DNA of 64,000 nt from Halichondria panicea (taxonomy: Eukaryota; Porifera; Demospongiae; Suberitida; Halichondriidae): the NCBI RefSeq assembly GCF_963675165.1, contig NC_087377.1, positions 14,876,198 to 14,940,197 on the forward strand, read 5' to 3'. The notes under the pieces were generated by a model. That model did no database searches, had not been told where the DNA came from, and was given only the letters and a program-made list of their open reading frames with translations. This document shows positions 6,664-61,825 of the stretch, one piece after another. Every line of letters begins with the position of its first letter. Within the stretch, counting starts at the first letter, position 1. The translations under genes and the position numbers were made by a program.

Positions 6664-7138
6664 TATACAGTATTGTCTCATATATAGCTTAATTGCATGG
6701 GTGTTGGTGGGGATGAAGGAATTGGAGAAATTTGCTAGCAAAATGGGCTGTAAAAAATTTAACAAGCTTTATGCATTCCGTTGCAGATATACGATTGATG
6801 CCACATTTATGTTATACTTGTGAATTCGCTGTAAAGGTGTATATGTATCGAGTTAGAATGAATTCACAAGTTTAATCTAACCATGCATATACATGAGTAA
6901 CACCGGCTCTTCAAAATGTGTATATAATTATGAAAATGGGTATAGTGGCTGCAATAGCATGTAGCAGAAAAGGGGGGAGGCCCGGGAAAGCTGATAGCAG
7001 AGCAGGCATTATGGGATAGTGCATGGGCACCGCTGCAGGCAGTATATAGGGTTGGTATAATTATAGATTATAATTATATGCTGGCATAATTTTGAGCACA
7101 ATAATATAATAGGCACATTTTTTGGGTGAGAATTATGC

Positions 7139-7197
7139 TAGCTTCGAGACCAGGCCGATTAAAATACGTATTTTAATCGGCCTGGATTCGAGGCTAG
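7139..7197. mobile_element. Palindromic mini-element, family TAGCCTCGA, copy 1
   Basis: TAGCTTCGAGACCAGGCCG at the left pairs with CGGCCTGGATTCGAGGCTA at the right; the centre is also palindromic (AAAATACGTATTTT). It is flanked by AATTATGC at 7131-7138 and 7198-7205, a perfect 8-bp direct repeat. Total length is 59 bp. Other copies with their own 8-bp repeats are at 32798, 50836 and 61315. Confidence 0.85.
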
Positions 7198-8286
7198 AAT
7201 TATGCTGGCATAATAGGTACCTTTAACAGAATAATAGGCAGGTTTTGGAAATACTGGTCAACGAATTAAACATTAATTTTGTATAGGGCTGGTGGAAGTA
7301 TAGTATACTGATGTTAATTTATTATTTCCTTGGTAAAAATTATTATGGTGTTTAGAGATAGAGTCATGTGGCTATATATTGCATGTGCAACGACGTGGGG
7401 TCTGTGTTGTGCTTAAAGATAGATGAAAGAAGGAATAACGTGGGAATAATTAATAGGCGATTTGAAAAGAAATTTGAAAAGAAAATTTGAATTTATAGCA
7501 TAAAAGAATAGCATATTAGTAACATCTCGAGCATAATCTACCAACTCCTAGCAGGCAGACATAATTATAAGGAAAGTGAGAGAGGGTGGGTGGACAAAGG
7601 GTATATATAATATAGGACGGGTATACTGGAGGGCAGGGCTAACCTCGTTCTCAGGCCGAAACTGAGGATATATACTTGATGGTTTTCTACAGTCACGAAG
7701 TATACTCGTGAAACGTTAACTGCGACATCTATATATAAAAAAATTATATCAGAACATGACGATGTTGGTACCAAACCGTACAGTGCACATGTACCCTCCT
7801 CAGGTACATGTGCATTATACACCGATATATTGGGAGTACTGAAATCATGAAAGTGCTGGTGCAAGGACCGGCCGGGGAGGGGCAGGTAAAATTCACCTAT
7901 AAACCACGATTATAAGGGGGGATTTCGCGCTACCCATGCAGCACAGTCCGATCATTATTTGCAAAAGGGCCGGGACGAGAGTATTGCTGGTTGGGTGGTC
8001 TGCATGTGAATCATGATCATGCATGAGATTGAAATGTGTGCTAGAATAACTTGGCAGGTAAAATTAATGGTTAACCACGCAGTTGCACCTCATGGCTATA
8101 CACATGTCTCAATTGTATTGCTATTTTTCATGAGAATTAGCCAAAAAATTAACACAACTTAAGCACACAGTTATTTGCATGGTCACTGACTATAATTAGT
8201 TTGACTGGAGATCATGTGACAGCACTAATAGAGATGATACACTTTTTATTCCTTTGCAGATATAACTGTATACCAGTTGTGGGATA

Positions 8287-9397
8287 ATGAAAGTAAGGCA
8301 CCCCTGGTTTTGCATAAAGGTTGCCATCATCCTTTCAGCACTGATCATCACTATTAGTATTGAAGAGTTGTTTAAAATTTCTCTTCAAGGAAAGAATGCA
8401 CAACATTCCGATCCATCTACTCTGATGGGATTAATGACAACATCGTGGAATAACTTCAGCCAAAACCAGTCACATGATGTTCCTTTGAAATTAGGCACCT
8501 TATCCATAACTCCACCACTTTCCCTTATAGGAGGAGAGAGAAAATTGTTGTTTTATCTCATTTTCACCACAAATGCTACTGTCGGATCAGATAAAAGGTT
8601 ACATGGAAAGTTCAATTGGCGCCACCTACGTACTGTTGAATCCATTTTCTATCACCATCCGACTGCTGAAGTCAATATGTACAGTAACACCTTACCCAAT
8701 AACACTTTCAATGCCTTGACTGAACTTGGTTACTCAATTCAGATTCACAGGTACGATTTAAAAAGAATGCTCATTGGTACTCCAGCCGAGGGTTTCATAA
8801 TGAAGTTGGAAAAGGCTAGAAAACACAAAAACTGGTATTCTAATGAATCTAATCTTGTTCGTATGCTCCTTTTGTACAAATTTGGTGGCATTTACATGGA
8901 TACAGATATTATTGTGGTGAGACCACTATATTCCCTGGGAAGGAACATTGCAGGGTGGCAGACACAAAACAGAACGATAAATAATGCTTTTTTGAAGTTT
9001 GAGAAAGGGAATGCATTTATAAAAGTTTGCCTAAAAGAATTTTCACAACACTATGAGCAGAAATGGGGTTTTAATGGACCACAACTCATCACCAGGATTT
9101 ATTTCAGATCAAATTGGAGCAGTTATGATGTAGAAATCGTTGACCGCAACTTATTCTACATGATTCACTGCAGTAATAATAACCATTCACTGTTTCGAGG
9201 ACACAGAAGGAAATACTTTTGACATCAATATGAAAGTGCTTAAAACTGAGGCTTTTGTTGTGCACACAAACACAAAGATCACAGAATACCAAGGAATAAA
9301 CGGCCCTCTGAAAAATGGCACAATTTGTAAGTACCTCTATAATTCATTTTGTGTCCTTTGTGATAAAGTTTACCTGGACTATAAAGTGAACAGCTAA
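8287..9397 (+). CDS. A4GALT/A4GNT-like glycosyltransferase, copy 1, frameshift near the 3' end
   Basis: This is a Golgi sugar transferase of the DXD-motif family that includes lactosylceramide alpha-1,4-galactosyltransferase and alpha-1,4-GlcNAc transferase. The ATG at 8287 follows a likely 5'-UTR acceptor (TTTGCAG ending at 8259). The protein has a type II membrane anchor at residues 8-28 (FCIKVAIILSALIITIS), a stem with N-glycosylation sites, then a catalytic domain with LVRMLLLYKFGGIYMDTD (DTD is the metal-binding DXD), followed by FNGPQLITRIY. The frame reads to 9222 (311 aa). Compared with copy 2 at 21262, one extra base near 9175-9190 shifts the frame; the matching C-terminus (TEAFVVHTNTKITEYQG and on) continues in another frame to a stop at 9397. 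The coding part appears to be one exon. It may be a recent pseudogene, a truncated protein or a sequence error. Confidence 0.75.
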
Positions 9398-9444
9398 CTG
9401 TAGCTAACTGTAGCTATAATTATTATCTGCATCATGTATATATC

Positions 9445-9550
9445 GTATTACTAGAATATTTTGCGTGTGAAAAACCTTTGCGAATGAGCCAAATCAGCAA
9501 GAAATTTGACCCTTTGCGATCTAACTATTGCGTTCTGGAAAGGATCATGT
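9445..9550. repeat. Partial copy of the CGTATTACTAG repeat family
   Basis: CGTATTACTAGAATATTTTG is followed by TGAAAAACCTTTGCGAATGA and TCTAACTATTGCGTTCTGG, shared with 3315-3490 and 40009-40216. It is located just 3' of glycosyltransferase copy 1 and is absent at the equivalent place after copy 2, so it inserted after or outside the duplication. Confidence 0.6.
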
Positions 9551-9661
9551 ATATTTACTAACTGATGCATGACTATATTTGTATAGCGGAACTCTTTAGC
9601 TATAATTATGTAGCTGGAGCTGACCAAAAATCAATAAAAACACATCTGTATAATTATGCAT

Positions 9662-10053
9662 ACCATATATGCTTGATCAGGAGCCGCGGCTACTAAATGT
9701 TTCATTTTGCTGGAAGAGGAGGCTACAATTCAAGAGGGGCCACAGTTCAAGAGCGGCGTTTATTAGCTCCAAATAATTTAGTTTGTCATCAAAAGTTGTT
9801 TTCACCTGCATAAACTTGAACTCTGCCATGAGAAGTCTTTGTGAAGCACTAACAAGCTGCTACTCATAGCTACGTACATGTAGCTAGCTGCTAGTAATAA
9901 TTTTTTTGGCTGCCACATGCAGAAATGCTAGAGTCAAAGTTCACTGAGGCTACTATTTGAGAGCGGCTACTAAATGTTTCATTTTGCTGGCAAGGGAGGC
10001 TACTATTTGAGTGCGGCCTTTATACAAGAGCGGCCTCTGATCAAGCATATACG
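9662..10053. mobile_element. Inverted-repeat element, about 390 bp
   Basis: The left end CCATATATGCTTGATCAG is matched in reverse complement by CTGATCAAGCATATACGG at the right end. The interior has two related blocks (CGGCTACTAAATGTTTCATT near 9690 and 9965) and several AAGAGCGGC-type motifs. No ORF of note. Superfamily not assigned. Confidence 0.6.
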
Positions 10054-10065
10054 GTACATGGTAAT

Positions 10066-10492
10066 TAGGCCTGTGCCAAATACACAGTATTCAAATTTTT
10101 TCACCTATTATTCAAATTATTTATTCACACTTGATCAGCCTAATATTCAACTTCATCAGCCTATTATTCAAATTGATGACACCTATTATTCAACATACAC
10201 AGCAGCGAAATAAACACCTATAAATTATATAGCACCAAAAAATAGGATTAAGATTAAGTCACTTTCAGCAGCGAAATAACAAACTTTAGCCACAAAAATG
10301 TGATCTCAACTCTCAACATTGATTTGGACTAACAATCATAGTTTACTGCCATGTAAAATGTGGGTGTGTTCTGAGCTAAGCTACTGCGCATATGCAACTC
10401 AATGAATATCGTTAAACTGTTTTCACAGTGCCTATTATTCAAAGACTGCCTATTATTCAAAAAATTATTCTGGAATATTTGGCACAGGCCTA
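10066..10492. mobile_element. hAT-type MITE, relative of the 2888-3158 element
   Basis: The ends are TAGGCCTGTGCCAAATAC and the near-perfect reverse complement GGAATATTTGGCACAGGCCTA. The flanks ATGGTAAT (10058-10065) and ATGGCTAT (10493-10500) match at 6 of 8 positions, consistent with a decayed 8-bp duplication. The interior is filled with the unit CCTATTATTCAAA in both orientations. There is no transposase gene. Confidence 0.7.
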
Positions 10493-10670
10493 ATGGCTAT
10501 TATATAATTATACATATCCGCTATAATTTTTATTGTATCAATAATTATATAGGGGTTTATATAGGTCTAATTATATCGACTAATTATATAAATAGACTAA
10601 GTACAAATTAACTAATCTAGTATACAAGTATAAAAACGTCTAAAACAGATTACATGCAGTTTTGTTCACT

Positions 10671-13600
10671 TCACATGAAGAGAGCCATGACAGAAACCAT
10701 AATGGTTATGGAGATGCTAGCGACAATCACAGACGCACTGTTGCCTCCAGGGTTGCCTCCAGGGTTACACGGGTCATTGGCTTGATACTGGCACTGGGCA
10801 TCAGCCTCTTGGAGTCCATTGGAAAATATCTCGCTACTCGTCTATAACAAAGAAAACAGGAAATAAGGGAGTGTCACCGTGATACTTATTGAATAGCCCC
10901 CAGAAATTAAATAAGCTGCTGGCTCCCAAATATAATATATCGTTGTGGCGGGCAGTACATGTGGTGATTTTTTTGTACATGCAGGTGCATCAGATTATCA
11001 ATCGACATGCACTGCATGTGAACTTACATCTTGCACAGTAAAGCACGAATCTCTAAAAGGTCCGTTGATAATGCTGCTTTGGAATGACTCAACCGCTTCA
11101 GGGCTCCATGGGATAACATTTAGAGCATTTAGGTACTCTGCATCAGATCTGGCAGTAAGAATAGCATTGATCTGCTGGCTGCAGGAAAATTTAGTAGGTA
11201 TATAATTATAATTATAGCTGCATGCATGTATAATATTATGATCATCAATTGTATAAGTTTATTAGAGTTGAATAAGCATATGATTATAACTTAAATGCTT
11301 TAAATGGGTTTAGGTACCAAGATTACGCCCACCCCCGCTTTGAGTGAAAGTTCCTGGGTAATTTGCCTCGAGAATACGCCCACCATGCAGGAAGTGATGC
11401 ATGCATACATGTATTTGTCAGTGAGCATGCATGCAGTTCAAGAAACGGTTGTGTTTTATCCGTTCGATTATCTGGCATATTCAGTACGTTATATCTGGCC
11501 TGCATGCCTCTGGAACCAAGGTGTCCAAATAATCTACATGTATACATTATAGGTTCTATATACAGTATATATATGTGCATGCATGATATTCTCACTCACG
11601 CAGTCACATGATTGGTGAGGAAAGGCTGATAGACATTCTGTACAAGAGGAATGTTGGTCAGACAGGCAGTTAGATCATTTCTTGGGTAGTAGTTTAAGAA
11701 CGAGAGACACATCTCTTCAGTTGTACTCTCCCCTCCCTGCGATGATAGAAATATAGTCGTGAAAATTCTGCATTCATAGAGGAGAAACTGACGGAAATAT
11801 TGAAACAGATAGGGTATAGCGTAAGTCTTGCACATTTAAAAAAAATCATGAGTATGGACATTAAAATTACCACTGACACTCCAGCTCTCCCCTCAGTGCT
11901 GTACTGACACTCCAAACGAATTATGTCACCCTGAAATTAGTAAGAAAATTGTAATACACATAATCATAATAATATTATTAATAGACCATAAAATAGAATC
12001 TATATAATTATACAGTATATAGACATTACGAAGGAGCTACTATATCACCGTGACGATATACGTATACTTACGGGCTGAACGTTAACTACTCTTGTAAGAT
12101 AGTTAGCCTGCTGGAAGTTAAAGTCATATCGGAGATTTTGATCAATTGGTTCCAGCTCACGATAGCCATTACCACAAGAGCTATCAGGTCTCAAGTGATG
12201 AAGAATTAATGCAAATCCTGCAAAATAACACATGAAGTTCATGTTAATTGTACACGTATAATGGGTAGAAAATTAATTATATAGTAGACTCTCGCTAATT
12301 CAGCTCTCTGAAGTACGGTCACCTCGATAATTATACTGGTCATTTCGTTCGGCACGGATTGCTAGCTTGATTTTTACAGCACAAAACTCACCCTGAAATG
12401 CGGCCACTCGCTATTCCATATACTATAGTCAGTTCTGACTGCCCCAAACTAGGTTTTTAATGTACGTTTATTTTTTGGCTGGATGTGACGTTTTGGATTT
12501 GGCAGATAAAATTGGTTACACTGTACACTTATAAAATAATGATTCATTATCCAGAGACATAACTGCATTGGATTCGAGGCAGGGTCGCTTTTTAGCCGCG
12601 GCTATGTTCTGAAATGTAGTCACCTCATCTTGCATATTATAATTCACTTACCGGCTAGATGAGTGTGCAAAGTGTTGGCGAAGACATTTATGCCAGTTGA
12701 AGGAATCTACATGTGTAGAGAAGAATATAGTATTCATGACATATTTGTAATGTGGAATTAAGTATAGCTATAGTTGGGTTATCCAAATAAAATTTTACTG
12801 ACAGATTTTCGACTGTAAATTATGTTTATATGCATTCGTATACCATAATGATCTTGTTATTAGGTGCTTACATTTGTGTTAGTACACCCGCTACTACACT
12901 CTCCAAACAGTTTGAACTGGGAGGCTCCAGGCGGTATGATCATTTGGCGATTGACCGTCTGTCCAACTTGCAGAATACCAGAATCGTAGGTACGCGGAGT
13001 GGCAGTGTACGAGAATCTCATCCCAGAGTTGTCCACAATATCTGCGAGGAAACATCTGAATGAGCGGTATGAACCAGATACATGTACATACAGTCTATTC
13101 ATCTGTACGTAGGTGCATGTGAGTACGCAGGAAGATTTGGATTATACAGGAGTGGGTGACACGATTAAAAACGTTACATATTGAAGTGGAATTTGGCATT
13201 AAAATTTGGGAGGCCATAATGAGTTTTGATTCTTCAATATAAAGCAAGATATAAAAAAATTCAAAAGCTTATAGGGATCTCCATCACATGGCATGCTTCT
13301 TTATTGTCACAGCTGTATTATAGGACAACATCTTTTGACGAAACAGATACTATAATACTGTAACTGCATGTGGGAGGCTCATTTACTCAACTAGCTAGCA
13401 AACCTGTTTCTTATACTGACTTGAGGCTTGATTAGGGTTGTCATAGTGAGTTTCCATGACAAGATAGCGAGGACCACCTCCACCCACTGGGTAAGCTACA
13501 TCAGCAGGGAACACAAAATCCTGTGGCAAACAGTATAGAACATATAATAATATAAGCACATCCTAATAGCATGGTTGTTTTAGGGCAATGTATCTTTTTT

Positions 13601-16295: not shown

Positions 16296-17338
16296 CATGA
16301 GGAACATTGTTATGCAAAACTTAATGTAATGCCGATATTTACCAAAAATGAATGTATTATTGTAGTAATGTGCATAGTGTTTACTTTTAATTAACTCATT
16401 TCCTGTGGTTAACTTTACTTCCTGTATTGTACTTTTCTGTTATTGTGGTTTCTGTTCGTTAGTAGGTTCTTTCTGTATAGTTGTTCTTTGTTCCCTTTGT
16501 GCCTAGCTATAGGGGCCGCTCCAGGCGGCTCTTTGTGTAGGGGAGCCTCTGCTCCACTGCCTTTTGTCTTGTACATACTTATACCTTTGTTCTTGTGCAT
16601 TTTATCAGTTGTTGAATACTAAACTCAAATGTCTGCATGAACCTGCGACATAACAATTATTATTATTCCCAAGAGCATAATCGATCGTAGCCTCGATCCC
16701 AGGCCGCACTTCCCACTTCACTTATATAGACTGGTCAAACTCGGTGTAGAGACTTGTGTAACGTTTGCCACGATATTTATATGGCAACTATAACCGCATG
16801 CGGTTACCACAACAGAGTTTGACAAGTCTACTGTTTGCCTGCAACAGTGACGGCTTGCGAGTCTATACTCCAGTACAGGGTTTTGCAGAATGCGAGGCAC
16901 TGGAGTTGCAACACACGAAGAAAAGTGTTGAGCACTGTGGTGTGCCTTGTATATACGGGAAATGCTCATAGTAAACAGACCACAGTGCATGTGCATGTAT
17001 ATACACAAAATCCATATAAGGTAAGCGTATAACGCTCTAAAGTATACGCTTTTACTGCATGCATGGTGCATGTGCATGTTGCAAAAATTCTGCAATTTCC
17101 AGTGCTACTGCATGACGCATTGTAGCGCTGCATAAATTGCTAGAAAGTAAACTAGATCTATACCTCTATATATAGTCACTCAGAATTTTTTCAAATAATT
17201 TTATAGTGACAAGTAGGCCCTGATAAATTATGCTCAGAATAATTTTAGCATAATAGGTGTCTAAAGAATAATTGGGAATCAATGTCCATTTTTGGTAAAG
17301 ATCATTACATTAAGTTTTGCATAACGATGTTTTCATGA
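16296..17338. repeat. Inverted-repeat bounded segment between gene A and the exostosin tail fragment
   Basis: GTTATGCAAAACTTAATGTA at 16309 recurs in reverse complement ending at 17325. The similarity extends over arms of roughly 50 bases (about 16296-16352 and 17284-17338). The 930-bp interior includes a left end of the TAGCCTCGA family near 16688 and no recognisable gene. It could be a non-autonomous element or a small inverted duplication. Confidence 0.5.
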
Positions 17339-17439
17339 CAAAAAATGCTGAGCTTGAGGTTGAGGGATCAATTCAAGTCAGCAAGATAACACTGCATGAG
17401 AATCAATGCATGATTATATTAATTATGTCGTGTAGAGGG

Positions 17440-17842: not shown

Positions 17843-17847
17843 CATAT

Positions 17848-18726: not shown

Positions 18727-19985
18727 ATGATTTAATGCAATCACATAACTTTTTGTGTAGTGTTATGGATCAATTCAACATGGTATGGCAAGTCTCTTGC
18801 TTTCACTCACTGCCCTTTGTGATGGACTACAAACTAGTATAGGTAGGACCAACACTGCCGGCCCTTGTCGACAGGTGTGTTGTTCTTGCAAATGTCTCTG
18901 CTTCTTGTTTTTGGTTCCTAACCACGCCCAGATACACGCCCAGATACAATCAACACCAGGCCTAGTTGGCGGCCTAGCTAGAAACAACTCGGCCTGGAAT
19001 CGAGGCTACAAACATGGAATGGCATTCAGATTGAATGTAGTTTAATGCAATTAAACGTAGTTAACGCCAAGTATGAGCCGCGAAGTCGAGTGTTGAGCAT
19101 GCGCGTGGTGGACCACGTGGTAGTATCAGTCGCATGTGTCAGAAAAGAAGGCAAACTGATATTTCCCGCCCACCCGCCCCTTTAGTTGAGTGTTTATAGT
19201 GTGCTTTAAGTTTTCCTCCGGCTAGGTCTCCTAGCCGTGATCAGCGTTCTTCCGCAGGGGCTCAAAACCCCTCTCGTGACCCATGACTAATTAGTTAGGG
19301 GTCGCGGGATGGGGTCAACCCCCCTCCCCTCGGGGAACGCCTTTGCCAAAATCTCTACACAATGGCCATGTCTTAACTTGGTTGCTGTGGCTTATTTTAC
19401 AGTGTATAAGGTAAGTTGTTAATGGTTAATTAGGTGGTTAATTGGTGTTGAGAAAATATGAAGGCGTTAAATGCCATTGCAACTATGCCACTGTTAAAAG
19501 TTGTGTTGTGTCCAAGCACTGCCAAATTTCTAATACTAAAAAGTACATTACAACCGTTAGGTAAGTCAACACTGTGCTATTATTATAGCTATAAGATTAT
19601 CGATTATCTTAGGTGCACTCATTTCTGAAGAAAGTATATTAATTTATTATGGCATGAATCCTTGTGATCTTATAGTTACGTACGTCGATCCGTCACAACG
19701 TCATTCACAGGTATATTATAATTCAGTATGTATGCATTATAATTATGTATACTAAATTATAGAACAAGATGTTATAGTGCATGGAACCTCCATAAAACGG
19801 ACACCATTGCATAGGGAACAGCCTTTTGGCTGTTATAGAGAGGTAGCCACAGCTAAGATTGTGCAAAATAATGCTAGCACGGCAATAATGTCTTGCTAAT
19901 TCTGGGTGTGCATGGCTGTCCATTCTGCTATCAGGAGAGTGCTATACATTGTATAATACTGGATATTTTGCAACACGATCATGCA

Positions 19986-20084: not shown

Positions 20085-20100
20085 GATCTGCTGAGCATTT

Positions 20101-20520: not shown

Positions 20521-21261
20521 CTGTATGTTAATGCTGTTGTAGCCATACTGTACATAGTGACTAGAGATCAATAATAAGAAGTGTAATCTAACCATGCATA
20601 TACATGAGTAACACTGGCTCTTCAAAATGTGTGTATGTAATACTGCGCCCTCGGGGAATATAAAATTATACAACTGCACGACGTAGAACAATAACAATAT
20701 ACACACGCAGATATCCACAGTACAGGTAGCTTGTACTGTGAACACCTATTGATTAGAAGCTGTTATCCAACTCATTTACAACTGAGTAGTAGTAAACACT
20801 CTTTGATCCCTACTGTGTATGCACTGTGCACATGCTGTGCATGTGCTTGCACTTGACAAACTACATTTACAAATGCAAAAGGGCCGGGACGAGAGTATTG
20901 CTGGTTGGGTGGTTTGCATGTGAATCGGGTGAGGTATATAGCATGCGCATGAGATTGAAATGTGTGCTAGAATAACTCGGCAGATAAAATTAATGATTAC
21001 ACGCAGTTGCACCCTGTTACTTTGTGCACAGTAGTTCCACACTCTTCTCTTCTTATGCACTCTTGATTGTATTGCTATTTTTCATGAAAATTATAGTCAA
21101 AAAATTAAGCACATGCACTGTTATTTGCATGGTCACTGCATGACTATATGCTTTTAGATAAGCTAGTTTACTGGAGATCATGTGACAGCACTAATTAAGG
21201 TTAAAGAGATGATACACTGTTTATTCCTTTGCAGATATAACTGTATACCAGTTGTGGGATA

Positions 21262-22370
21262 ATGAAAGTAAGGCAACCCTGGTTTTGCATAAAGGTTGCC
21301 ATCATCCTTTCAGCACTGATCATCACTATTAGTATTGAAGAGTTGTTTAAAATTTCTCTTCAAGGAAAGAATGCACAACATTCCGATCCATCTACTCTGA
21401 TGGGATTAATGACAACATCGTGGAATAACGCCAAAACCAGTCACATGATGTTCCTTTGAAATTAGGCACCTTATCCATAACTCCACCACTTTCCCTTATA
21501 GGAGGAGAGAGAAAATTGTTGTTTTATCTCATTTTCACCACAAATGCTACTGTCGGATCAGATAAAAGGTTACATGGAAAGTTCAATTGGCGCCACCTAC
21601 GTACTGTTGAATCCATTTTCTATCACCATCCGACTGCTGAAGTCAATATGTACAGTAACACCTTACCCAATAACACTTTCAATGCCTTGACTGAACTTGG
21701 TTACTCAATTCAGATTCACAGGTACGATTTAAAAAGAATGCTCATTGGTACTCCAGCCGAGGGTTTCATAATGAAGTTGGAAAAGGCTAGAAAAAACAAA
21801 TACTGGTATTCTAATGAATCTAATCTTGTTCGTATGCTCCTTTTGTACAAATTTGGTGGCATTTACATGGATACAGATATTATTGTGGTGAGACCACTAT
21901 ATTCCCTGGGAAGGAACATTGCAGGGTGGGAGACACAAAATAGAACGATAAATATGGCTTTTTCGAAGTTTGAGAAGGGGAATCTATTTATAGAAGCTTG
22001 CCTAAAAGAATTTTCACAGCACTATGATGGTCGGTTTTGGGGTCTTAATGGACCAGAACTCATCACCAGGATTTATTTCAGATCAAATTGGAGCAGTTAT
22101 GATGTAGAAATCGTTGACCGCAACTTATTCTACATGATTCTCTGGAGTAATATAAACAGTCACTGTTTCGAGGACACAGAAGGAAATACTTTTGACATCA
22201 ACATGAAAGTGCTTAAAACTGAGGCTTTTGTTGTGCACACAAACACAAAGATCACAGAATACCAAGGAATGAACGGCCCTCTGAAAAATGGCACAATTTG
22301 TAAGTACCTCTATAATTCATTTTGTGTCCTTTGTGATAAAGTTTACCTGGACTATAAAATGAACATCTAA
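21262..22370 (+). CDS. A4GALT/A4GNT-like glycosyltransferase, copy 2, frameshift in the stem
   Basis: A close duplicate of the gene at 8287, with the same ATG context, membrane anchor and a catalytic domain with MDTD, LNGPELITRIY and FYMILWSN. The first frame reads 21262-21459 (65 aa) and stops after TSWNNAKTSHMMFL. Copy 1 reads TSWNNFSQNQSHDVPL at the same place, so copy 2 lacks four bases near 21429. The remaining catalytic region is open from 21456 (MKLGTLSIT) to the stop at 22370 and keeps the C-terminus that copy 1 has lost. Translation from 21456 would give a 304-aa protein without a membrane anchor. One substitution pair (FLKFEKGNAF versus FSKFEKGNLF) shows the copies are diverging. 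Either a recent pseudogene or a sequence error is possible. Confidence 0.75.
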
Positions 22371-23345
22371 CTGTAGCTATAATTATTATCTGCATCATGT
22401 ATATAATTATAATAACTATATTTAAAGCTATAACAGTTATGTGACAATTTTGCTTGCTGTTTTGACTAATGAGTATAATTATTGCCGTTACAATAATAAA
22501 ATTATTACGGAACAAACACCCCATGCATGCATGCACATCAGCAATTTGTTCGCATGCATGCATGAGTACGTAGTGGCAGGGGAATAATACTGTATACATG
22601 AACTATATATATAGGGGTGGGGGCCCTGGCCCAGAGGGACATATTGCACCGTTTTTTCGGATGGTGGAAATTTTCGTATTTCTTGTATCAGTATAATTAT
22701 AGAGCACCTACGAAAATGTTCATTTTTCTTGCACAAAGATTCAAGTTCACTATAATTATAACATTATATACTGAGCTGCATACGAAATATTTAAATGGAC
22801 ATAATTATAGTTTACACAAAATTTTGTGCAAAGTAAATCTACCCGCTATATACGAGAATTTTACCCCGTTGACAGTATTCTCTGTACATAATTACGGAAG
22901 CCGGGAATGGTCAACTCGAGCGGCAGAAAGAGCATGTGCTAGACGTCATCATAATTTAATATGTCGGACGCTGATATCTTCAAAACTACAGGCTGAAGAT
23001 ATATATACAGACACCATTCATCAACCGTTTTAAAGCTACTGTTTAGCCTATTGTAATATCTATATTCTCCAAGTATTGTAGCTAGACAGCCCGGTATATG
23101 CATTATAGATCTATAAACTCTTATGATATCATGCATGCATTGGGTTAGAGCGGATATCGATCCTCTATTCAGAACTTAATAATTATAGCAAGTATATAAC
23201 AGAAATATTATAGCTATAGAAAAATATAGTTATTCAGGAATTATTGCCGGTGTTTTTACTTGAAAGATTCTAGGTCTAGCTAATAATTATATAGTTATAC
23301 AACATATATGAATTGTCAGATTGTTCTTTTATATAGCAACTTCAG
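22371..23345. other. Intergenic, no gene seen
   Basis: Between the convergent 3' ends of glycosyltransferase copy 2 and gene B. It contains a repeat block at about 22640-22800 (TTGTATCAGTATAATTAT, CACCTACGAAAATG, GAGCTGCATACGAAA) also seen at about 50655-50755, and GCATGCATGC-type runs. No supported exon. Confidence 0.5.
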
Positions 23346-32088: not shown

Positions 32089-33797
32089 GTCTAAAGTACT
32101 TTAACAGCAATGTATAATAGAAAAAACTACAACTGAAAATCTTGTGCTGAAACATGATTTTATAATAATTATCTGGGAGCTAGAGGAGGGAGTGGCTGAA
32201 TTCCTTGGATGAGGTATAGGTTCCCCCTATAATTTGAAACATGCATGTAAGCATAAAGTATAGGGCCGGATATGTGGTGACTAACTACCTATCACGAACT
32301 TTCTTGGAAGGGGCTGTTGAACTTTCTTGGAAGGGGCTGTTACATAACTGTACTTGCTTACCCTCTGATTGGATATAGTACACTCATGCATACACACAAT
32401 GACTGGATTACAGGTATCATGTGATGACCCCTAACTACCTATATCCAAGACCTTTCAACTATAACATCCTTATATTTACATCCTGTATGTACTTTTACAG
32501 TTTGAGCAGCTGTGTCACTGCATGTATTATATATAGCCAGAGGAAGCTTATCCTTTTCTGTGCATCCTGTTTATTTACCCTATAATTATACATTTCCTGT
32601 CTTAGATCATTTTCTTACTTTTGGTTTAGCCCTATATATAGCTTGTCAAATTATACTGTACTTGCAAGCTATATACGAATGTGCTGATCTAGCTTGTTAC
32701 CGAACAATTGGTTCTTTTTTCACTCATAATTACATATTTGGTTTCCGCACAAGATAAGTATTTTATACGGCATATATATATAGAGCAGCTATACATGTAG
32801 CCTCGATCCCAGGCCGATCCATCTCTAATTGAACGCTAGGTCGCCTCCAGGCCGATCCATCTCTAATTGAACGCTAGGTAGGCGACCTAGCGTTCAATTA
32901 GAGATGGATCGGCCTGGGATCGAGGCTACTATACATGTAGATCTAGCTACAATTATTCAACCAGATAAATAGAGCAAAGATAGCACTGTTGCCACAAATA
33001 ACAGATATTATTTAAAGTATAGCTTTAGCTAAGGTTATATCCCTGTACAAGCAGTGCCATATACCTTACACTGCATGCTATAGTATAATTATACACTATT
33101 TTCAAATTTCACAGCTATAGCCTAAGGGTATATATATAGGTATGCACGAGGCCTGACGAGGTACCAGGTTTGTCTCGGGTATATGCATGCAGGCCGAACA
33201 TTTGATGAGTACAAAAAGAATGTCTGGTCAAATCAGTTCCTAATACGTATCATAATTATGTTTCATGCAGAGTTCCAGGAATTAGAGCTAATTAACCACA
33301 TACACCGGATGCCCGCCCACGACCATGCAGTCATGAATATAATTATGTGGGATTATTACTAGCTGGGTCCACATTGATCTGTGTCCATCTGAGTATTGAA
33401 AAGTGAAACAGGCATAATTTAAAAGTACATAGAAAAAATGGTGTTGTGCATGCACGTCATATTCACTGCATGCACCTGATTCCTATAGTCTCAGGTCAAT
33501 ATGCAGGAGAGGAATTATGAAGATCAGCTGAGATTCAAACCCAGAATAGCCACTACACCCCCACATTAATTGGTATATACGCCCACTCATAATGATTCAA
33601 TTAATAGTGTCACTATAATTATCCCAATCAGTATACATGCAGATCAATATTAAAAATAATGTGTAAAAATTACTTCTGGAAATTAAAAGAACTTCTTATC
33701 AGTTCCTATAGTTAATCAGATCGAATTATCGTGTTTTTTAAGGTTCTAAGATTCTAGTCGCAACATGTTCTAAACTGTTCTTTATATACACTTCAGT
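32089..33797. other. Intergenic between genes B and C
   Basis: Upstream of gene B and downstream of gene C. No supported exon. A direct repeat of AACTTTCTTGGAAGGGGCTG lies at about 32296-32341. A palindromic mini-element is at 32798-32929. The rest is AT-rich with TATAATTAT-type motifs. The promoter of gene B should lie near 32090-32300. Confidence 0.5.
32798..32929. mobile_element. Palindromic mini-element, family TAGCCTCGA, copy 2 (long form)
   Basis: TAGCCTCGATCCCAGGCCGA pairs with TCGGCCTGGGATCGAGGCTA. The 132-bp form has a partly duplicated arm (AGGCCGATCCATCTC occurs twice on the left). It is flanked by TATACATG at 32790-32797 and 32930-32937, a perfect 8-bp direct repeat. Confidence 0.85.
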
Positions 33798-50284: not shown

Positions 50285-51342
50285 AATTATACTGTCAGAT
50301 ACACTAACAATACAGCTACAGCGAGAAGAAAGGTCGTCAGAGGAGGAAGTACTAGGTCTACTTGGGCGTGGCCTGCTTAACCTCGATTTTATGGCCGCCC
50401 TCGAAACGAAATCGCGCAACGTGTGTGTCAAATCGCGATGATTAATATGCAAAAAGCAGCACTGCTTTCAGGCAAGGAACAGTGGCCATAACCTTTCAAA
50501 ATATATAATGTTTTTCCTCGGGATTTGTTTGCAGATCCACGAAGGAGATTGCCTTTGCTTGGCTTGTTACTGTTAGTATCCTCGACTGTCTGACACAAAA
50601 CAACCTCTTTGTACGAGTATGTAATATCTGAATAGGGCCGGGCTTGCCTAAATTGTATCAGTATTGAGCATCTACGAAAATTTTACAGTTCCACGTCACT
50701 ATCCCGAGCTGTACGAAAATTAATTATTTAAATGGGTACAGTAGTTCGTACGAAAACTTGCACCAAAGAAAAATACCAGCTATACAGTATTATTCATCAC
50801 TCTGCTTCAGAATGCATTTGCGATAATGTCATTGTTAGCCTCGAGACCAGGCCGACGTATTTTATTCGGCCTGGATTCGAGGCTACGTCATTGTGGGCTG
50901 AGGAATACTTTAGCCAGCTGCTAATATCACAACAAATACATCCCAAAATAACTATGAAGCTGCATGCAGTATATAGACTGAGATGAAATATTAATACAAT
51001 TTTAATGCACGCTGCTATCAACCACTTATGTTCCTTTAAACTTATTATATAAAAGCATATGTTACTATTATAAACAGGCACTAATTTTAACAAATTTGTA
51101 AATTATATCCAGAAAACGCATGAATCTCATTGATTATAAACCTTTTTCTGTACTTTTGATTATACTAAACTATAATAGCCTTTTATCTACATCTGACTCC
51201 AAACTTTCCTATAAAACTCATACTTATAGAAAATTATTACCAACTAAATTTACTGCAAATCCGCCCTAAAAGTAGAGAAAAATCTGAAAAACGCTAATAG
51301 TATAACCTTAAAGGTAATAGGAAGGTACACACTTTATAAGTT
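50285..51342. other. Spacer between CHK1 start and the 3' end of the sushi receptor gene
   Basis: The CHK1 promoter should lie within 50285-50500. A palindromic mini-element is at 50836-50886 and a repeat shared with 22640-22800 at about 50655-50755. No supported exon. Confidence 0.5.
50836..50886. mobile_element. Palindromic mini-element, family TAGCCTCGA, copy 3
   Basis: TAGCCTCGAGACCAGGCCG pairs with CGGCCTGGATTCGAGGCTA across a 10-base centre. Flanked by GTCATTGT at 50828-50835 and 50887-50894, a perfect 8-bp direct repeat. Total 51 bp. Confidence 0.85.
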
Positions 51343-53415: not shown

Positions 53416-54680
53416 GATTAAACTTGCTGTTGAGCACTCTTAGCTATACGTAGTTACGTTCTATATTCAGGGATAAAGCTATTAAGGCCACAACAAGAGC
53501 TAGTTTTCTGTTTCTCATCCAGTTGTTTATTCAGCAACAACTTACCTGATGCGCATGCGCAAACCACACTTTGGCTGAGTGGGTGTGGTTTGCACATGCA
53601 AATAATTACACACAGCACCTGTAAGCTGATAATGCGAAAGATGTAATTATGTGGTCTCATTAACCTTTTTGTTTGGCTCAAGCTAGTGCAGGAGGTGACC
53701 TAGCGTTACTTTAGAGATAAATCGCAATGACAGTATTAGCCACCTTGATCCCAGGCCGAGTTTTCGCTTTTATAACGGTTAGGCGAACAACTATCCTAGT
53801 TGCCAAAAGCCTAAAATACCCCTGCCTGTATGTTTATAGATGTTATTTTTGTGCAATTTCATATTGTAAAAGACAAACTGTGAAATATATAAAAAAGTGA
53901 TGACGCTGCAAATATTTGTGGCTCATGCAGTTGCTGTTGTTCACCTCTCCAATACACATGCGCGCTACTTCTCCTTGTATGTAGTAACATTGGCAAGACG
54001 TTCTTTCTCTAAACTGATGACTTTGATCGAAACACTCTCTTTGGCTGCGATGTGCTGGTGTTCCAATAGTCTATATGCTGCTCCCAGTCCAGTCCAATAA
54101 TTACTATACGTACGTTTGTTCTTAAGCAGATTGAACTTCGTGTGTCCCAGGTATCCTGCGCAATGATATAATTATAGTAATAAATCTTTGCATATATACT
54201 ATAACGAGTGCTGCAAGCTGCACTGTGCTAATGCCTCTCGTCGCCGTGTTTGCTTTCGCTCTATAGAATGGAATAGAAGAGGTATTTATAATGTTATGTT
54301 ATTATACAATTTTTGAATTGAATTCCAGGCACTGTCAGTCATTATAGTAGAGGAGCTTAATGGAAATATAGAATTAAGTCTATATAATTATTATGATGGC
54401 TTGATGAGGATTTATAGAAGCATGTAGATCTACTGTGAATATAAAAATCAAGTCCTCTGTTTCCTGACAACTAAAAAAGGGGGTGGATCTGCAACAAGGT
54501 TAGAGAGGTTACAGTGGCTAGGGAATACTTAAATTTGGTAAAGATCATTAACTACACATAAATATGTTGACTGTGTCCTGTGTTGTGCATGTGAATGAAA
54601 TTTTAATTACTTTGCATGAACTATTCTCAATATATATAGCACACACACAAAAATCAGTGAACTATAAAGTAGAAACAAAA
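53416..54680. other. Bidirectional spacer between two divergent receptor genes
   Basis: The 1.27 kb between two start codons facing away from each other should hold both promoters. A degenerate left end of the TAGCCTCGA family lies near 53740 (CCTTGATCCCAGGCCGAG). The open stretch 53897-54100 has no splice or similarity support. Otherwise nothing recognised. Confidence 0.5.
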
Positions 54681-57600
54681 ATGAAGTTACTAGTGCTGTT
54701 TATAGTACTTGTATGGTCAAAGATCAATTTGTGCACTGCTACTGGTGATGCAGAAATGACAGTGAGCTTCACTCAGACCTCTTACACTGTAACAGAGGGA
54801 GAAGCTGTGTCAGTGTGTGTGACAGCCACCCCTGCACTGGTTGGAGAGGCTGTGGTGGTGATAGAACTGATGAGCAGAGAGGGATTCTCTCAAGGTATGC
54901 ATTTAACTAGTATCAATTAAGAGTTCATTCCTAATGAACTCTTAATTGCTAGTATGCATTGTTAGTGCTACTGTTTCCCTGGTGATTATTATATAGATCT
55001 CACTGTTGATCCGACAAGCACACTGACATTGACCAACACCACAACTCAAGTTTGCTGGAATGTTGCTGCTGTAGATGACTCTATATTTGAGAATTCTGAG
55101 ACTTCCACGCTGACACTGTCAGTGACAGCTGCACCGATAATTGCTGGAATGTCTGTGGTGCAGCAAAGTACTGCAATAGTTACTGTAATAGAAAATGATG
55201 GTGAGACTTCGTAACTTGCATTAATTGATGGTTGAATCATAACAATTCTTGTGCAGATGTCACGGTTGCAATGACAGATGATCAGAGGTCAGTCACTGAA
55301 GGAGGGACGGTAATGGTTTGTGTAACCTTGACTGGACAGTTGGGGAGAAGTGTGTTAGTGGGTCTGACCAGCATCATCGGAACTGGTAAAGTTATTGGGT
55401 GCGATGTTATCCTTCATGATCTCTTTCCATTAAAGCTTCGGCAGCAGACTTTGAACCAGTACCGGTTACAATACTATTCTCAGACTCTGCAACTGATACA
55501 GCAGACAATTGTATTCACATTGCAACAAATGGAGACAGTATTTTTGAGGCAAATGAGACGTTCACTGTGTCACTGGAGTCACTGTCATTGAAGGGAGGAG
55601 CCAAACCACAGTTATCACTGTGGATGATGATGGTAAGATTATAATTTATAGTTGCATACTCATATGTTATTTTAATGAGTGGATTGCGAGACTGTATATA
55701 CTGTGAATGAGATAACCATAACAAGAATGTGTTTATCTTTTTCTGCAAACAATATTTCATACCTTGACCTGATGGCGCAGTTCTGTAGACTGTGAAAAGA
55801 AAAAGCTGTGTCATGGTATACAGTTATACAGTGCATGGGTTTCATACAAACATCGATATTACGTATCGACCATCTATAGATCTGCTGCTGAAACGTTGCC
55901 TGCTTTGCAGATAGAATTGTAGGTGCAGCTTTATGCTGTTCTGTGCTGGAGCGCGCTCATATAATATTTGTAAATAATAATAGTTGGGTGCATGTGCAGC
56001 CGTACGAGAGTACTATATGGTTTAGGGGGTTGATAATATTGCTATAGATGCTGTTGTTTCCATGGTCACTCCTACCATGACAACTACCGAGGGTGGTGTG
56101 GCTTATGTGTGTGCTAATCTGGTCAGTCCATCTGGTGGAACAAGTGTACCCATCACTGTTGTGTTTACTTGGAGTGGAGGTGTGTAAACTATACTGTTGT
56201 CTTTGTGTGATTGCTCTAATTACATAGGATCGGACTCTGCAACCTTCTCAGTTAACTCAAACGCAGACACTCAGGCATGTATACAACTGAGAGAAGCAGA
56301 TGATGATATATTCGGGACGTCTCCAATACCAGTGAATACTGTTTTGTTGAGCAGTGTCAACTCAAGAGTGACTGTTGGAACGAATAGTCAAACCACAATA
56401 ACAGTCAGGGATGATGATGGTATATGACGTGTCATGTGTGTGTATGAGTTGCTATCTTATATCCACTGCGCAGATGTCACTATTGAAATGAAGAATGCTA
56501 TTCTGAACCAAAATGAAAGTGATGGTGATGTCATTGTCTGTGCAGTACTCACTGGGCCCTCAGGTGGTCTTGGACAATGTCACTGTCCAGTTCACTGCTC
56601 CAGCAAACCTATCTCCTAATGGACAACTGACACGTATGTTTGTAAATACATCTTGTTATAACTAATACACAGATTATGCTCATTGTACATGCACACATAA
56701 TTATATAGTAACCTTCCCAAGTGGAGCTGCACTTCTCTCTGAACAATGCATTACTTACACTGATCCTGTGAGCGATGATGAACTGTTTGAGACCACAAGT
56801 CCACTTGCATCATTCATTGTGACGTTGAGTGCTAACCAGGATCGTGTTACTGCCACTGGTACCACCACAATCAACGTATACGATGATGATGGTGAGATAA
56901 TATTCTCCATAATAATAAGTATAGGCTTGATTGACGTGATTTATATTATAATGTGCAGATGCTGTGTTGGCTCTACAAAACACATTATACAACTTACAAG
57001 AAGCAACCAACGAGACTGGACAGATATGTGTGATGCGTGTGGGGCCAGCTGGTGGTCTGGCCAATCCAGTACAAGTGTATTTCATCATTAGCACAACTAA
57101 TATTTTAAGTCCAGCAAGTTAGTCAAATTCCATAATTATCAAACAGCACTATTCACTGTATGCACAGCTCGTGGTGTTGACTATACTGTTGATGTTCAGT
57201 TGCAAACTAGTACAAGATTGGACGTTCCTGTTTGTATCACCGTGACAATAGTGGATGACACAATAGCCGACCCTGGAGAATCATTCAGAGTTCAAGTATC
57301 CACTTTGAATGCAGACAGAGTTTCTTTCAGTAATGGCATCTCAGAAGCAACTATCAATATCATCAATGATGATGGTAACCTTGTAACTGTGATTATAATT
57401 ACAATATCCTTTCCTTTTATTTACAGTTTTGGCTGGTCCAACAAACCTAAGAAGTATCAGAACAGCCTCGACTAGTGTCACCTTGCAATGGAATGCTCCT
57501 GACAGCCAGTCATTATCTACAAGCCTGGTTAGCTATACTGTAATGTGGAACAATGAGCAAAGAACATTGACGTCTGTTCAGCTCCAATACACTATACGTC

Positions 57601-59551
57601 AGCTGGTCCTATTTCAAGAGTATCAATTTTCTGTTCATGCCAATTTTGCGGATGGGAGCAGGAGTAACTCTATTTCCATTAACGTTACAACACTGCAGGA
57701 TGGTAAGCTACACAGATATATAAAAGCTTACTTTCATACTTTTTATAGTTCCAGGAGGTCCACCTGCTATGCTGATGGCTTCACCCACGGCAGCCACCCA
57801 CACGGCAACCACCCTCACCCTCTCCTGGGATCCAGCAGCTGAACCTAATGGAGTCATCATCACCTACACACTGTATGTGGACTACCTCAATGGAACCACC
57901 ACAAACATCGCTACTCCATCCACAATTTTCCTATTATCTCCCCTGAGGCCCTATCAAAGTACTATGTCAGTGCAAGTATCAGCCAGTACTTCAGTTGGTG
58001 AGGGACCAAGAACACTCAGTATGAACTTCACTACAGCTGAGGCCAGTGAGTGCAGTGCATACAATGCATGCTGTCTCATGTTACATGTAGTATATATATG
58101 CAAATGTCATGTGATAAATCCTTCCTTCAGAGTCTGGCCCAGTTGGTAGTCTGAGAGTCCTAAGAGTGAATGAAACCACCTTCACTGTCAACTGGATTGC
58201 GCCTGCCGAGGTCAATGGAGTATTACTAACATACACCATCAGCACCAACGAGGAAGGAAGCAGCTCAGTAGTAGAGCACTACAACACTTTAGCTGCTTCG
58301 TTCTCTATACATGAATTAGGTAAACAGATAGTCAATGTCTAGTATAGTGCATCACCTCCCTCCACCTACAGTCCCCTATACTCCATATGTGGTATCAGTG
58401 GCTGCCATCAATGGCGTTGGTTTTGGAGTGGCTGCCAGTGTTGTAGAATTCACTGCTGAAGGAAGTAAGGTTTTCCCCTTCACTGAATGATCCTATCATA
58501 TTGTATACACACAGTTCCTCCATTCCATCCTCGAGATATTGGTTCCACTCGACTGAATGGAACAGCTGTCCGGGTGTCATGGATACCACTCAGTCGCTCA
58601 GAGGCTAGAGGCTTCATCACTAACTATACATCATCACCTACTGGAGAGTTGGCTCTAATGCTGCGAATGCTAGTACCATTACTGTGTCTGGGGAAGACGC
58701 CAGCTCTGCTATAATTATTAATCTCAACTCAAACTCTGATTACTACTTTACAGTGTCAGCTGGTACAGTACAGGGATTGGGAAATGTCAGTGTGTTGCCA
58801 TGGTTATACCCGGACAGTCTATACCCACACAAGTACAGTCACCAGGGAATCAATGTATGCACGTGCAAGGATATTATTATGCCTGCATGTATTCAACCTT
58901 CCGCTTATAAATAATGTTTTTTACAGCAATGGTGGGAGTGATTGCTGGAGCTGTTGTAGGACTGATCGTTGCCGTGGTTCTACTGACAATCATAGTCTGC
59001 ATTGCTTGCATGTAAGTTTCAATAATTTATTTGTCAAAACCTAAGTAAATCTCAGAATTAGGAGAAGACAACATGGTAGGCCTAAACAGGAAAGTGCATG
59101 TAAGTATTGTTTACACTAAGTAGTTACTGACTACATATCACACGCACAGCAAGTAATCCCGCATATGGTATGTCTGTTATACAAGCTCCTAATGATGCAG
59201 TCAACATCCAATCAAATGATGAGCACACATATGAACATGTACAAGGTATAAGGTGCATGATATACTAGTGTCTAATTATTAGCATTATATACATGCATGT
59301 CTGTATTACGTGTCACACTGTATACTGTGTGTGTGTGTGTGTGCGTGTGTGTCACTGTGTGTAGGTCATCATGATTATGGCTATCTTTCAGATATACATG
59401 TAGATGAGGTGCTTTACGAAACTATCGATCCTGACAGAAACAGCGGTGAAGGTTTGTGGGCCAATTAATGTGTGTTATTCCCAGTAATCACTATTATACA
59501 GGTGAAGCAGTTATGGTATCAGGCAATGCAGCTTACAGAGTGAGATTGTGA
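54681..59551 (+). CDS. Single-pass receptor-like protein: five Calx-beta and four fibronectin III domains, three frame breaks
   Basis: Exons: 54681-54894, 54997-55200, 55257-55385, 55445-55632, 56048-56179, 56228-56419, 56474-56633, 56709-56891, 56959-57117, 57168-57374, 57427-57702, 57749-58045, 58131-58319, 58372-58464, 58515-58789, 58927-59011, 59056-59099, 59150-59245, 59365-59451, 59502-59551. Signal peptide (MKLLVLFIVLVWSKINLC), then five Calx-beta domains each on two exons (DDSIFENSE, VDDTIADPGE, ending in DDDG/NDDG), four FN3 domains, a membrane helix (VVGLIVAVVLLTIIVCIAC) and a tail with NPAYG, TYEHV, LYETI and AYRV. Extracellular introns are phase 1. Exons 4, 7 and 15 each carry a net one-base shift (after LSLKGG, near PSGGL, near NYTS), while splice sites and all other exons are intact. 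Either a young pseudogene or base-level assembly errors. Calx-beta domains also occur in sponge aggregation factors. Confidence 0.75.
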
Positions 59552-60430
59552 TGTCATAGAACACAAAATGTAACTGTATATATACGTGTCAATCAGTGCA
59601 TGCTGATAGTATTTTTGCACGGCATTGTAATAGCAGAGAGTTGTGTTCTTTTTAAATGAGAAATTTGACCTCACAAAACTCAAAAACAAAACTTTCTATC
59701 TGTTCATATGACGTCACGCACCCAATTAACCATTAATGCAATACAGCAAATGAAATATTAATAAGCTGTCAATTTACGCGGTGTACTGAGTGGTTGTATA
59801 CTGTTACTTATGCCGGGTGATGGAGAGAGTCACCTGCCACAGCTACCACGTGCATTGCACCTCGCTGACCAGCCAAGTACGTGGCCACCTCGCAAATACT
59901 TTCACTACATTGCGGTAAATGGTTGCAGGTGCCTAAGCAATTATTGTCATGACCTGCAGTGCTTTGTTGTATTATTGCAGGTGACCTTCTCAAGTATCGA
60001 CTTATTTAAAATAATAATAAAAAAATTATGATTATGACAAACTGTGGGTCCATGGCAATTATAGTTGGGCTAGCTCTATAAACATCAATAAGTATTCATT
60101 ATTGCCATGGACTTCTAAGCTTCTACAGCAGGGGGAACTGATTCCCAATAGATCTGGGGGGGGGGCTTAATATTTCAAAGATTTAGCCTGGCTCTTACCA
60201 TAGATATTATAGATCGATGTGATTAAACCTACTGCACTGAGCATTGTCAAACGGAAGTTTTTCTTCACTGAATTTATTAACTAGTTGTTGCTAAAAATAA
60301 ATAATGAGCTCTACAGAATTGCTAGATCTTTGGCATTGACTATAATCACATTTGCAACATCTTGTGATGCCCAAATTACATGCAGGTAAGACGGAATTGT
60401 TGTAGTCTATTGAATTGTCTATTATTCTAG
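59552..60430. other. Intergenic, no gene seen
   Basis: Downstream of the Calx-beta gene. AT-rich; no exon supported. Includes a G-run near 60157-60167 and an inverted pair (GCCATGG near 60051 and 60105). Confidence 0.45.
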
Positions 60431-60831
60431 ATGAGATCTCAAGTGCGGCTGGTAAAAAATTCGTGGTTGTGGTTTCCAAAGAAACTTGCATTTGGGTCTA
60501 ATAGAAGACGAGTTGTTCTTGTCACAAACCCAGAGTCTGAGTGCATGTTAATTTCACAGTCACTCCAATCAGTGTGAACGTTTCTTCCTTTTCAACTAGT
60601 GTGAACGTTCCATTCAGTTTTGAGGTGTTTTCTGTCAATGAAAGGAACAAGGGGATCCTTGTTGAAGCCGACGGAAACATCAATTTGTATGGGATGTCTT
60701 ATAATTTAGAATCTGCAGATACCTTTTTAGCGTTACCATGTTCTAGCTACACTAGTGTGATTTTGTTGGTGGCTTGTGAAAATGGAACTGTTGTCAAATA
60801 TTCAATATTCCTCAACAATGACACTAAATAG
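60431..60831 (+). pseudogene. IgGFc-binding-like domain fragment
   Basis: The longest frame (60541-60831) reads VNFTVTPISVNV, then NERNKGILVEADGNINLYGM and SADTFLALPCSSYT, the pattern of the IgGFc-binding N-terminal domain (a beta-rich extracellular domain found in FCGBP and in many invertebrate surface proteins). Upstream, in other frames, are GKKFVVVV and FGSNRRRVVLVTNPESE, which fit the preceding strands; at least two one-base shifts are needed to join them. The stop after FLNNDTK ends the domain early. No signal peptide or further exons were found, so this is a broken or truncated copy. Confidence 0.6.
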
Positions 60832-61825
60832 TATGGAAACGTATCAGATTGAAAGTGATAATGATGAACAAGAATAACAAGCTCCAAACCTCTGTCTGTG
60901 TTTAGTGGATCTGATTGTGCTTGTCAGTTTTCCTCAACATATGAGGGCTTGTGAACATCTGGTTGAACAAGTGCCTCCGACTGTGACATGGTGTTTAAAA
61001 TTCCTTGTGGCATCTCTTGAGGGTATAGATCTTCTGCATGCATAGACTAACAGGAGACGTATACAAGACAGATAAACGCTCAAGAATGCTTAAGAATGAT
61101 AAAATGCTGACTCAGCGGGTTGGGGTTCCTTCTATGGTTTCTGTGCATTTACTATAGGAATTGGAGATTACAAGAAGATTAATTAACAATCGTGACCAAC
61201 CTCCTCTGAATGAACGGTATTTGCTTCTAGTTGGGCAGAATCCAACTAATTAGCCTCAAGCTAATTGCGAAGACGGGGCTTCAATCTGTGCCTAAAATGC
61301 AAAGTGTACAAACTTAGCCTCGATTCGGCCGATACTATTTTAATCGGCCTTGAATCGAGGCTAGTACAAACTAAACGAGTGCATGCATGGAGACAAGTTG
61401 CACCGTTTGCGATTCCTTCGGTTTGTCAGTTCTCTGTGTCATATTAGTGATTCCTGTCATGCACGCGCAATTGAACCAATGAGATGTATATAGCCATAGT
61501 AACTGCCAGAGAGTGCATACCTTTTCTGTAGTGCACAGAGACATGCATGCAGACCTGAAACAGAACAATAATTCCAACTAATTAAGCTGAGACAGGAAAG
61601 AAGTAGCATCCATCTTTTCAGTCTGCTCATAGCTTTAGTCCTTTTCTTTTTCTTGTTCATGCTTGAAATCAATAAATTAATGTTATAACAAGGCCAAGTT
61701 ATCAGCAGAGTTAGTTTTGCATGTTGTTTTTGTGAGTTTTGGCTCCGCCCTCGAGCATAAACGCATAATTTATTTGCGGTCAACACAATCATCTGGGTGT
61801 GTCTTCTATATCGACCCTGGAAGAC
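60832..61825. other. Intergenic, with a palindromic mini-element
   Basis: No exon supported. Contains the mini-element at 61315-61364. The final 300 bases should include the promoter or 5' UTR of the gene at 61826. Confidence 0.5.
61315..61364. mobile_element. Palindromic mini-element, family TAGCCTCGA, copy 4
   Basis: TAGCCTCGATTCGGCCGAT pairs with ATCGGCCTTGAATCGAGGCTA. Flanked by TACAAACT at 61307-61314 and 61365-61372, a perfect 8-bp direct repeat (9 bp if the next G is counted). Total 50 bp. Confidence 0.85.

Follow-up and report, generated by a model that had tools for sequence, protein, structure and literature searches.

The genome of the sponge Halichondria panicea harbors a family of short palindromic DNA elements, four of which lie in the window, a stretch of 64,000 nucleotides (C1:14876198-14940197, where C1 is contig NC_087377.1) of the 131-Mb, 39-contig genome. 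The palindromes are very probably a family of miniature inverted-repeat transposable elements (MITEs), consisting of end-to-end fusions of longer elements and moved in trans. They are short (36-131 bp), have terminal inverted repeats (TIRs), carry a fixed 9-bp target duplication for which empty sites exist, and occur in a high and homogeneous copy number. Their derivation from longer elements is seen in exact fusions of the ends of a 606-bp and a 1075-bp element. We tentatively regard the family as new; its kind (MITE, tentatively Mutator-like) and its mechanism are familiar. What sets it apart is that the elements are small, stem from several parents and have clean junctions.

In brief, longer elements with terminal repeats starting TAGCCTCGAnnCCAGGCC would have lost their interior by deletion, often leaving little beyond the two terminal repeats, fused head to head into palindromes of 36-131 bp. 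A transposase acting in trans, and cutting its target with a 9-bp stagger, would then have copied some of the fused forms, the 58-bp one above all, as units to many sites.

Palindromic elements of the window

An initial annotation, made from the letters of the window, described four near-palindromes, which are found at roughly the coordinates given there (Table 1). The starts agree, and each element has its exact end at CTA, one base short of the end first proposed. The final S of the proposed end motif TCGAGGCTAS is the first base of the right-hand duplication copy. Because this base had been counted into the element, the target duplication had been read as 8 bp, and its actual length is 9 bp. 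Each element has a duplication of its own, as annotated, which is perfect in three of the four.

The elements were also expected to fold into a single hairpin, and this is borne out. Folded as single DNA strands they have z-scores of -10.1 (element 7139), -20.6 (32798), -8.4 (50836) and -8.1 (61315), and for each of them none of 200 shuffles folded as well. No match to a known RNA family was found within the window.

The only other match within the window to the joined flanks is a stretch of 41 bases near 5400, which the flanks of the first element hit. Searched separately, the flanks of three window elements, the fourth being outside that list, gave no match in the other fetched loci. Since the flanks match almost nothing else, the window elements are separate insertions; the shared surroundings that would mark segmental copies were not seen around them.

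Table 1. Palindromic elements, target duplications and one-sided ends in the window
Feature	Position	Strand	Remarks
58-bp palindromic element, subfamily A	7139..7196	.	Termini TAG...CTA; 26/29 arm pairs
Target duplication (9 bp), left copy GAATTATGC	7130..7138	.	Element 7139
Target duplication (9 bp), right copy GAATTATGC	7197..7205	.	Element 7139
131-bp palindromic element, subfamily C	32798..32928	.	49-bp perfect arms flank a 33-bp partial arm repeat
Target duplication (9 bp), left copy CTATACATG	32789..32797	.	Element 32798
Target duplication (9 bp), right copy CTATACATG	32929..32937	.	Element 32798
50-bp palindromic element	50836..50885	.	The two ends differ GA/AT at positions 10-11
Target duplication, left copy TGTCATTGT	50827..50835	.	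8/9 match, element 50836
Target duplication, right copy CGTCATTGT	50886..50894	.	8/9 match, element 50836
49-bp palindromic element	61315..61363	.	Two right-arm bases missing from left arm
Target duplication (9 bp), left copy GTACAAACT	61306..61314	.	Element 61315
Target duplication (9 bp), right copy GTACAAACT	61364..61372	.	Element 61315
Isolated left terminus TAGCCTCGATCCCAGGCCGC	16688..16707	+	No partner end found
Isolated right terminus	18989..19008	-	No partner end found
Diverged, truncated left end, subfamily B	53737..53792	+	Arm shared with the 1075-bp element, by-eye comparison

Distribution of the ends and census of target duplications

The family end pair is written TAGCCTCGA...TCGAGGCTA. 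The genome was searched with a terminus query of 20 bases, 18 of them fixed, allowing at most 2 mismatches, and the pattern read backwards served as control. The query gave 4281 forward and 4261 reverse matches across the 131 Mb and the control none in either direction, placing the ends far beyond chance. No match was found in viral contigs. Prokaryote contigs (257 billion bases) gave five matches, with about seven expected by chance according to our estimate for 18 fixed bases and two strands. Spread in bacteria or viruses is therefore rejected, and a plasmid search with a stretch of the window found nothing.

Around matches in the first 2.3 Mb of C1, twenty stretches of 9.9 kb were fetched; 14 more followed, covering 12 transposase places (individual loci are numbered with the prefix L). 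The fetched loci are not a random sample, because large repeats are shared within this part of C1. In the window and L009-L042, short elements (34-160 bp) were delimited solely by their ends; the overlapping L001-L008 and the prokaryotic L043-L047 were left out. This gave 28 short elements, which fell into 19 groups after merging similar flanks. When the flanks of these groups were tabulated most of them matched, at 9 bp: an exact 9-bp duplication was found in 13 of the 19 group representatives and an 8/9 match in two (window element 50836 and L025:4163); the other four are discussed below. None of the 19 had an exact duplication of any other length from 5 to 13 bp. Mispaired flanks, used as a control, gave two exact matches in 342, both from a neighboring pair in L041. 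As this pair shares its duplication, two of the 13 exact duplications are not fully independent.

The L041 pair is a tandem array (L041:954-1073, on contig C17) in which duplication, element, duplication, element and duplication follow each other, with one 9-mer (GCAACTTCC) present three times and elements of 57 and 36 bp. A tandem array of the same form occurs at L033:265-387 on C1, with the 9-mer GTACACCTT three times and the first element shortened. Such arrays would stem either from repeated insertion into one 9-mer or from slippage between duplications.

Among the 19 representatives, between 13/23 and 51/53 positions of the palindrome arms pair without gaps. Window elements 7139 and 50836, L033:321 and L025:4545 share the GA/AT difference at positions 10-11 of their ends, in outer arms that are otherwise nearly perfect. 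It may mark left and right ends.

Empty sites and segmental duplication

For 28 element entries the flanks were joined with one duplication copy and searched against the fetched loci. Paralogous sites free of the element were found for six insertions. The 102-bp element of L022 has two, identical at 111 of 111 bases, and the 100-bp element of L010 has four, with a difference of 7 bases immediately to the left of the duplication. One empty site each was found for the 606-bp element of L015 (95.6% identity) and the 1075-bp element of L024 (94.4% identity, a single change within the 9-mer). For two elements of L025 (105 and 44 bp), seen via L027 too, the empty site lies in L026, where 11 and 7 bases, respectively, differ nearby. 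The search with L032:4711 gave merely a rough match to an adjoining inverted copy, the matches for L036 were uninformative owing to their minisatellite location, and the remaining entries, including three window elements, had no empty site among the matches listed from the fetched loci. Together with the duplications, the paralogous empty sites bear out the annotated view that these are transposed DNA elements with target duplications of their own.

Copies might also have spread mainly by segmental duplication of host DNA. Larger shared repeats in the first 2.3 Mb of C1 do carry several copies (L009/L011/L013/L017, L012/L016/L018 and L025/L027). We nevertheless consider this highly improbable and reject it as the main route on the evidence of the flank groups and the empty sites: 19 groups of short elements, the four window copies included, persist after flank merging. 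Since empty sites exist, transposition made the copies and segmental duplication multiplied some of them locally.

Longer relatives and probable origin of the palindromes

Longer elements with the same ends and duplication were found, of 606 bp (L015) and of 1077, 1075 and 1088 bp (L020, L024 and L026, respectively); the duplication of the 1077-bp element matches at 8/9 positions. The 1075-bp copy has perfect terminal repeats of 85 bp. An 1861-bp element in L019, first considered a larger family member, was rejected as such, being of the 606-bp type and interrupted by a foreign repeat of about 1.26 kb. In the two longer members checked (L019 and L024) all open frames are shorter than 100 amino acids, and the longer elements (about 606 and 1080 bp) are apparently non-coding and themselves non-autonomous. 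Exact 9-bp duplications also flank elements with related ends at L028:4456-4523, L022:6551-7259 (709 bp) and L012:3762-4531 (770 bp), the ends being TAGTCTCGCGAG, TAGCCTCC and TAGCCTCT, respectively. The TAG(C/T)CTC group is thus wider than the TAGCCTCGA family.

Two short palindromes are exact fusions of the ends of such longer elements. The 59-bp element of L016 joins 30 bases from the start of the 606-bp L015 element to 31 from its end, with a 2-bp overlap and 547 bp missing, and it retains the left/right difference of its parent (GATT on the left, GCATT on the right). The 103-bp element of L032 consists of the first 55 and the last 49 bases of the 1075-bp L024 element, with a 1-bp overlap. 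Because of these exact fusions, we take the arms of different short palindromes to be the terminal repeats of different parents.

Probable spread of the short forms

The 36-bp core of the 58-bp form, which includes the end-to-end junction, occurs at 181 places in the genome at 3 or fewer mismatches, and the control gave none. Thirty-four copies are exact and are distributed over 16 contigs; the window copy (C1:14883347, element 7139) is one of these. With respect to arm homogenization, the copies with one mismatch among the listed matches to the core show one-sided changes, as they must by construction.

It could be argued that the copies inserted as long elements and were then shortened in place, so that the tiny form never moved. 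Fusion with overlaps of 1-2 bp is indeed observed, the genome has the internal junction of the 131-bp form just once, and the duplication-bearing 36-bp form and one such 44-bp form were each seen at a single site group. The core and junction of the 58-bp form, present at 181 places, would demand the same deletion again and again. Shortening in place is unlikely as a general account; since repeated identical deletion at many sites is unlikely, the 58-bp form has most likely moved as a unit.

The internal-repeat junction of the 131-bp window element occurs only once in the genome at 3 or fewer mismatches, and since this junction is single, the element may have been altered in place or moved once. 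The 36-bp copy (L041) has an exact duplication. That of the 44-bp copy is exact in L025 and matches at 8/9 positions in L027, which is the same site. The 36-, 44- and 131-bp copies may have been shortened where they stand, and the 36- and 44-bp copies may have been longer at insertion. The suggestion in the initial annotation that the palindromes are a minimal transposable unit thus holds for the 58-bp form, with its 181 core copies. The family is not an isolated one, since the short forms are fusions of longer elements belonging to it.

It has also been considered that the palindrome itself is functional. In elements of at most 60 bp, which would be too short for normal looping of double-stranded DNA, cruciform extrusion could join both ends at the base, and the transposase would act on the folded hairpin. 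We give this little credence. If true, it would represent a loop-free mode of DDE transposition with selection for arm complementarity.

Candidate transposases

The genome contains 31 matches to one Mutator-like element (MULE) transposase model and 26 to a second. Other transposase domains are also present, namely KDZ (53), hAT dimerization (32), Merlin type (24) and P-type RNase H (46). Mutator elements make duplications of 8-11 bp, typically 9 bp, which agrees with the palindromes, and a complete MULE of this genome (L041) likewise has a 9-bp duplication. If the palindromes are MITEs, the mover would be a DDE transposase acting by cut-and-paste, and we lean towards one of the Mutator superfamily as the most likely source. 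This assignment is inferred from the duplication, as no transposase bracketed by family ends was found in the stretches read at 12 transposase places.

The initial annotation attributed the palindromes to a hAT- or P-type transposase. This attribution is not supported, because it was based on an 8-bp duplication and the actual length is 9 bp. hAT elements duplicate 8 bp and P elements 7-8 bp, and none of the 19 representatives has an exact in-register duplication of 8 bp. Genes of both types are present: a hAT gene with a 728-amino acid open frame in four copies of identical score, and a P-type gene in eight. Of the places in the listed part of C1, one of five P places (C1:4977667, 3.8 kb) and one of four hAT places (C1:6054329, 4.6 kb) have an exact terminus less than 6 kb away. 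No matching termini were found within the 4.8 kb fetched around the multi-copy hAT gene (L038). The identical-score P copy in that part of C1 (C1:5068183) has no exact terminus within 6 kb, which is weak evidence as only exact, mostly forward ends were listed. We therefore disfavor both types as the mover and regard movement by either as doubtful.

One of the eight identical-score P-type copies (C1:14868934) is located about 7 kb left of the window, and five of the eight have a 570-amino acid open frame. The scores and open frames suggest a recent burst.

Several other transposases were examined as possible parents. L041 carries a complete MULE with a 9-bp duplication (AATAATTAA) and a MULE domain confirmed by Pfam. 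A multi-copy MULE family (L029, L035-L037) was rejected as parent, as neither its outer ends nor its paired terminal repeats of about 102 bp are TAGCCTCGA. The label "Rehavkus-like" that we use for it comes from its repeats, and according to Pfam neither L029 nor L031 has a PHD finger. Seven pairs of its terminal repeats lie 7.6-13.7 kb apart; an 809-amino acid open frame is present in two copies, with minisatellite-like repeats on both sides. Both copies read carry a palindrome inside these minisatellite-like repeats. The L031 sequence TAGTCTCAATC... was rejected as a MULE terminus, the genome having no inverted partner of it. At the two KDZ places read, no family termini with a matching duplication were found around them; nearby short elements have duplications of their own, and KDZ was rejected as parent there.

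It should be noted that a number of observations weigh against the MITE reading or its Mutator assignment. Four of the 19 representatives lack an in-register duplication (L009:4865, L025:4286, L030:1257 and L032:4711). In the last of these an extra TAGCC precedes the start, and AGCTAGCTT is repeated beyond that. L013, a member of the L009 group, bears an exact 10-bp duplication. The B-type palindromes of L010 and L036 closely resemble the parents and are not exact fusions of the three parent copies compared, and the fusion origin of the 58-bp form comes from a match of its arms to the ends of the L019 element made by eye, not computed. The complete L041 MULE has ends (CGCTGTGAC...) that differ from the family termini, and those of the L029/L035-L037 family are likewise unlike TAGCCTCGA. 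No transposase gene bracketed by family termini was found at the 12 transposase places, where most stretches reach only 2-3 kb past the domain. Finally, a proximity test within the listed part of C1, limited to exact and mostly forward ends, showed no clear enrichment: four of the 17 transposase places (two KDZ, one hAT and one P) have an exact terminus less than 6 kb away, against a random mean of 2.3 (share 0.19).

Comparison with known elements

Made1 and the mariner elements duplicate TA. In design, Made1 is the closest published analogue that we have seen. It is a human MITE of the mariner Hsmar1, described as 80 bp long, with 6 bp between two 37-bp TIRs (PMC1784062). As in the sponge, the terminal repeats are fused almost directly, and the resulting palindrome is nearly perfect and goes back to a longer element (PMC1784062). 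Made1 as described there has one parent, whereas the sponge family has a 9-bp duplication, mostly shorter elements and arms from several parents.

In duplication and foldback character, the closest we have seen is the Tm1 Mutator/Foldback family of root-knot nematodes. Its duplications are given as 8-10 bp, most commonly 9 bp, and MITE-like members occur beside a transposase-bearing member (PMC3169594). Foldback-like inverted repeats and 9-bp duplications are common to both. Tm1 differs, according to its description, in having asymmetric 7-bp terminal motifs, tandem repeats of about 14 bp in the TIRs and a Phantom-type transposase (PMC3169594); the sponge palindromes have the ends TAG...CTA, and no autonomous member was found at the fetched loci. 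For Mutator-like elements in general, duplications of 8-11 bp are reported, with 9 bp for Rehavkus (PMC6446971). The sponge palindromes share the duplication length, and MULEs are present in this genome; the MULE termini that could be read here, however, are not TAGCCTCGA. The repetitive hairpin-forming elements of sponge mitochondria (PMC11572364) are likewise described as short multiplying hairpins, but these are mitochondrial and the likeness is one of resemblance only. No paper on this palindrome family was recognized among the top-ranked open-licence literature.

With long elements, exact fusions and 181 copies of one fusion core within one genome, the family would provide a clear case of MITE origin. 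The 58-bp form hints at the minimum length of element that a transposase with a 9-bp stagger can move, and this minimum may be lower still in view of the 36- and 44-bp copies. If transcribed, the hairpins would be candidate precursors of small RNAs, as reported for Made1.

Other features of the window

Degenerate ends noted earlier near 16688, 18989 and 53740 are present. Each of them is one-sided: the first is a left end only, the second a right end only (at 19008), and the third a diverged left end beginning at 53737.

Some genes of the window are animal-like in look. Two glycosyltransferases carry Gb3_synth domains, a fibronectin type III domain is also present, and a Calx-beta match lies just below the cut-off. 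The Gb3_synth-like glycosyltransferase gene is duplicated, the copies at 8112-9442 and 21066-22405 being 94% identical. The stretch bearing element 7139 is longer in the first duplicate (6925-7960) than in the second (20636-20874).

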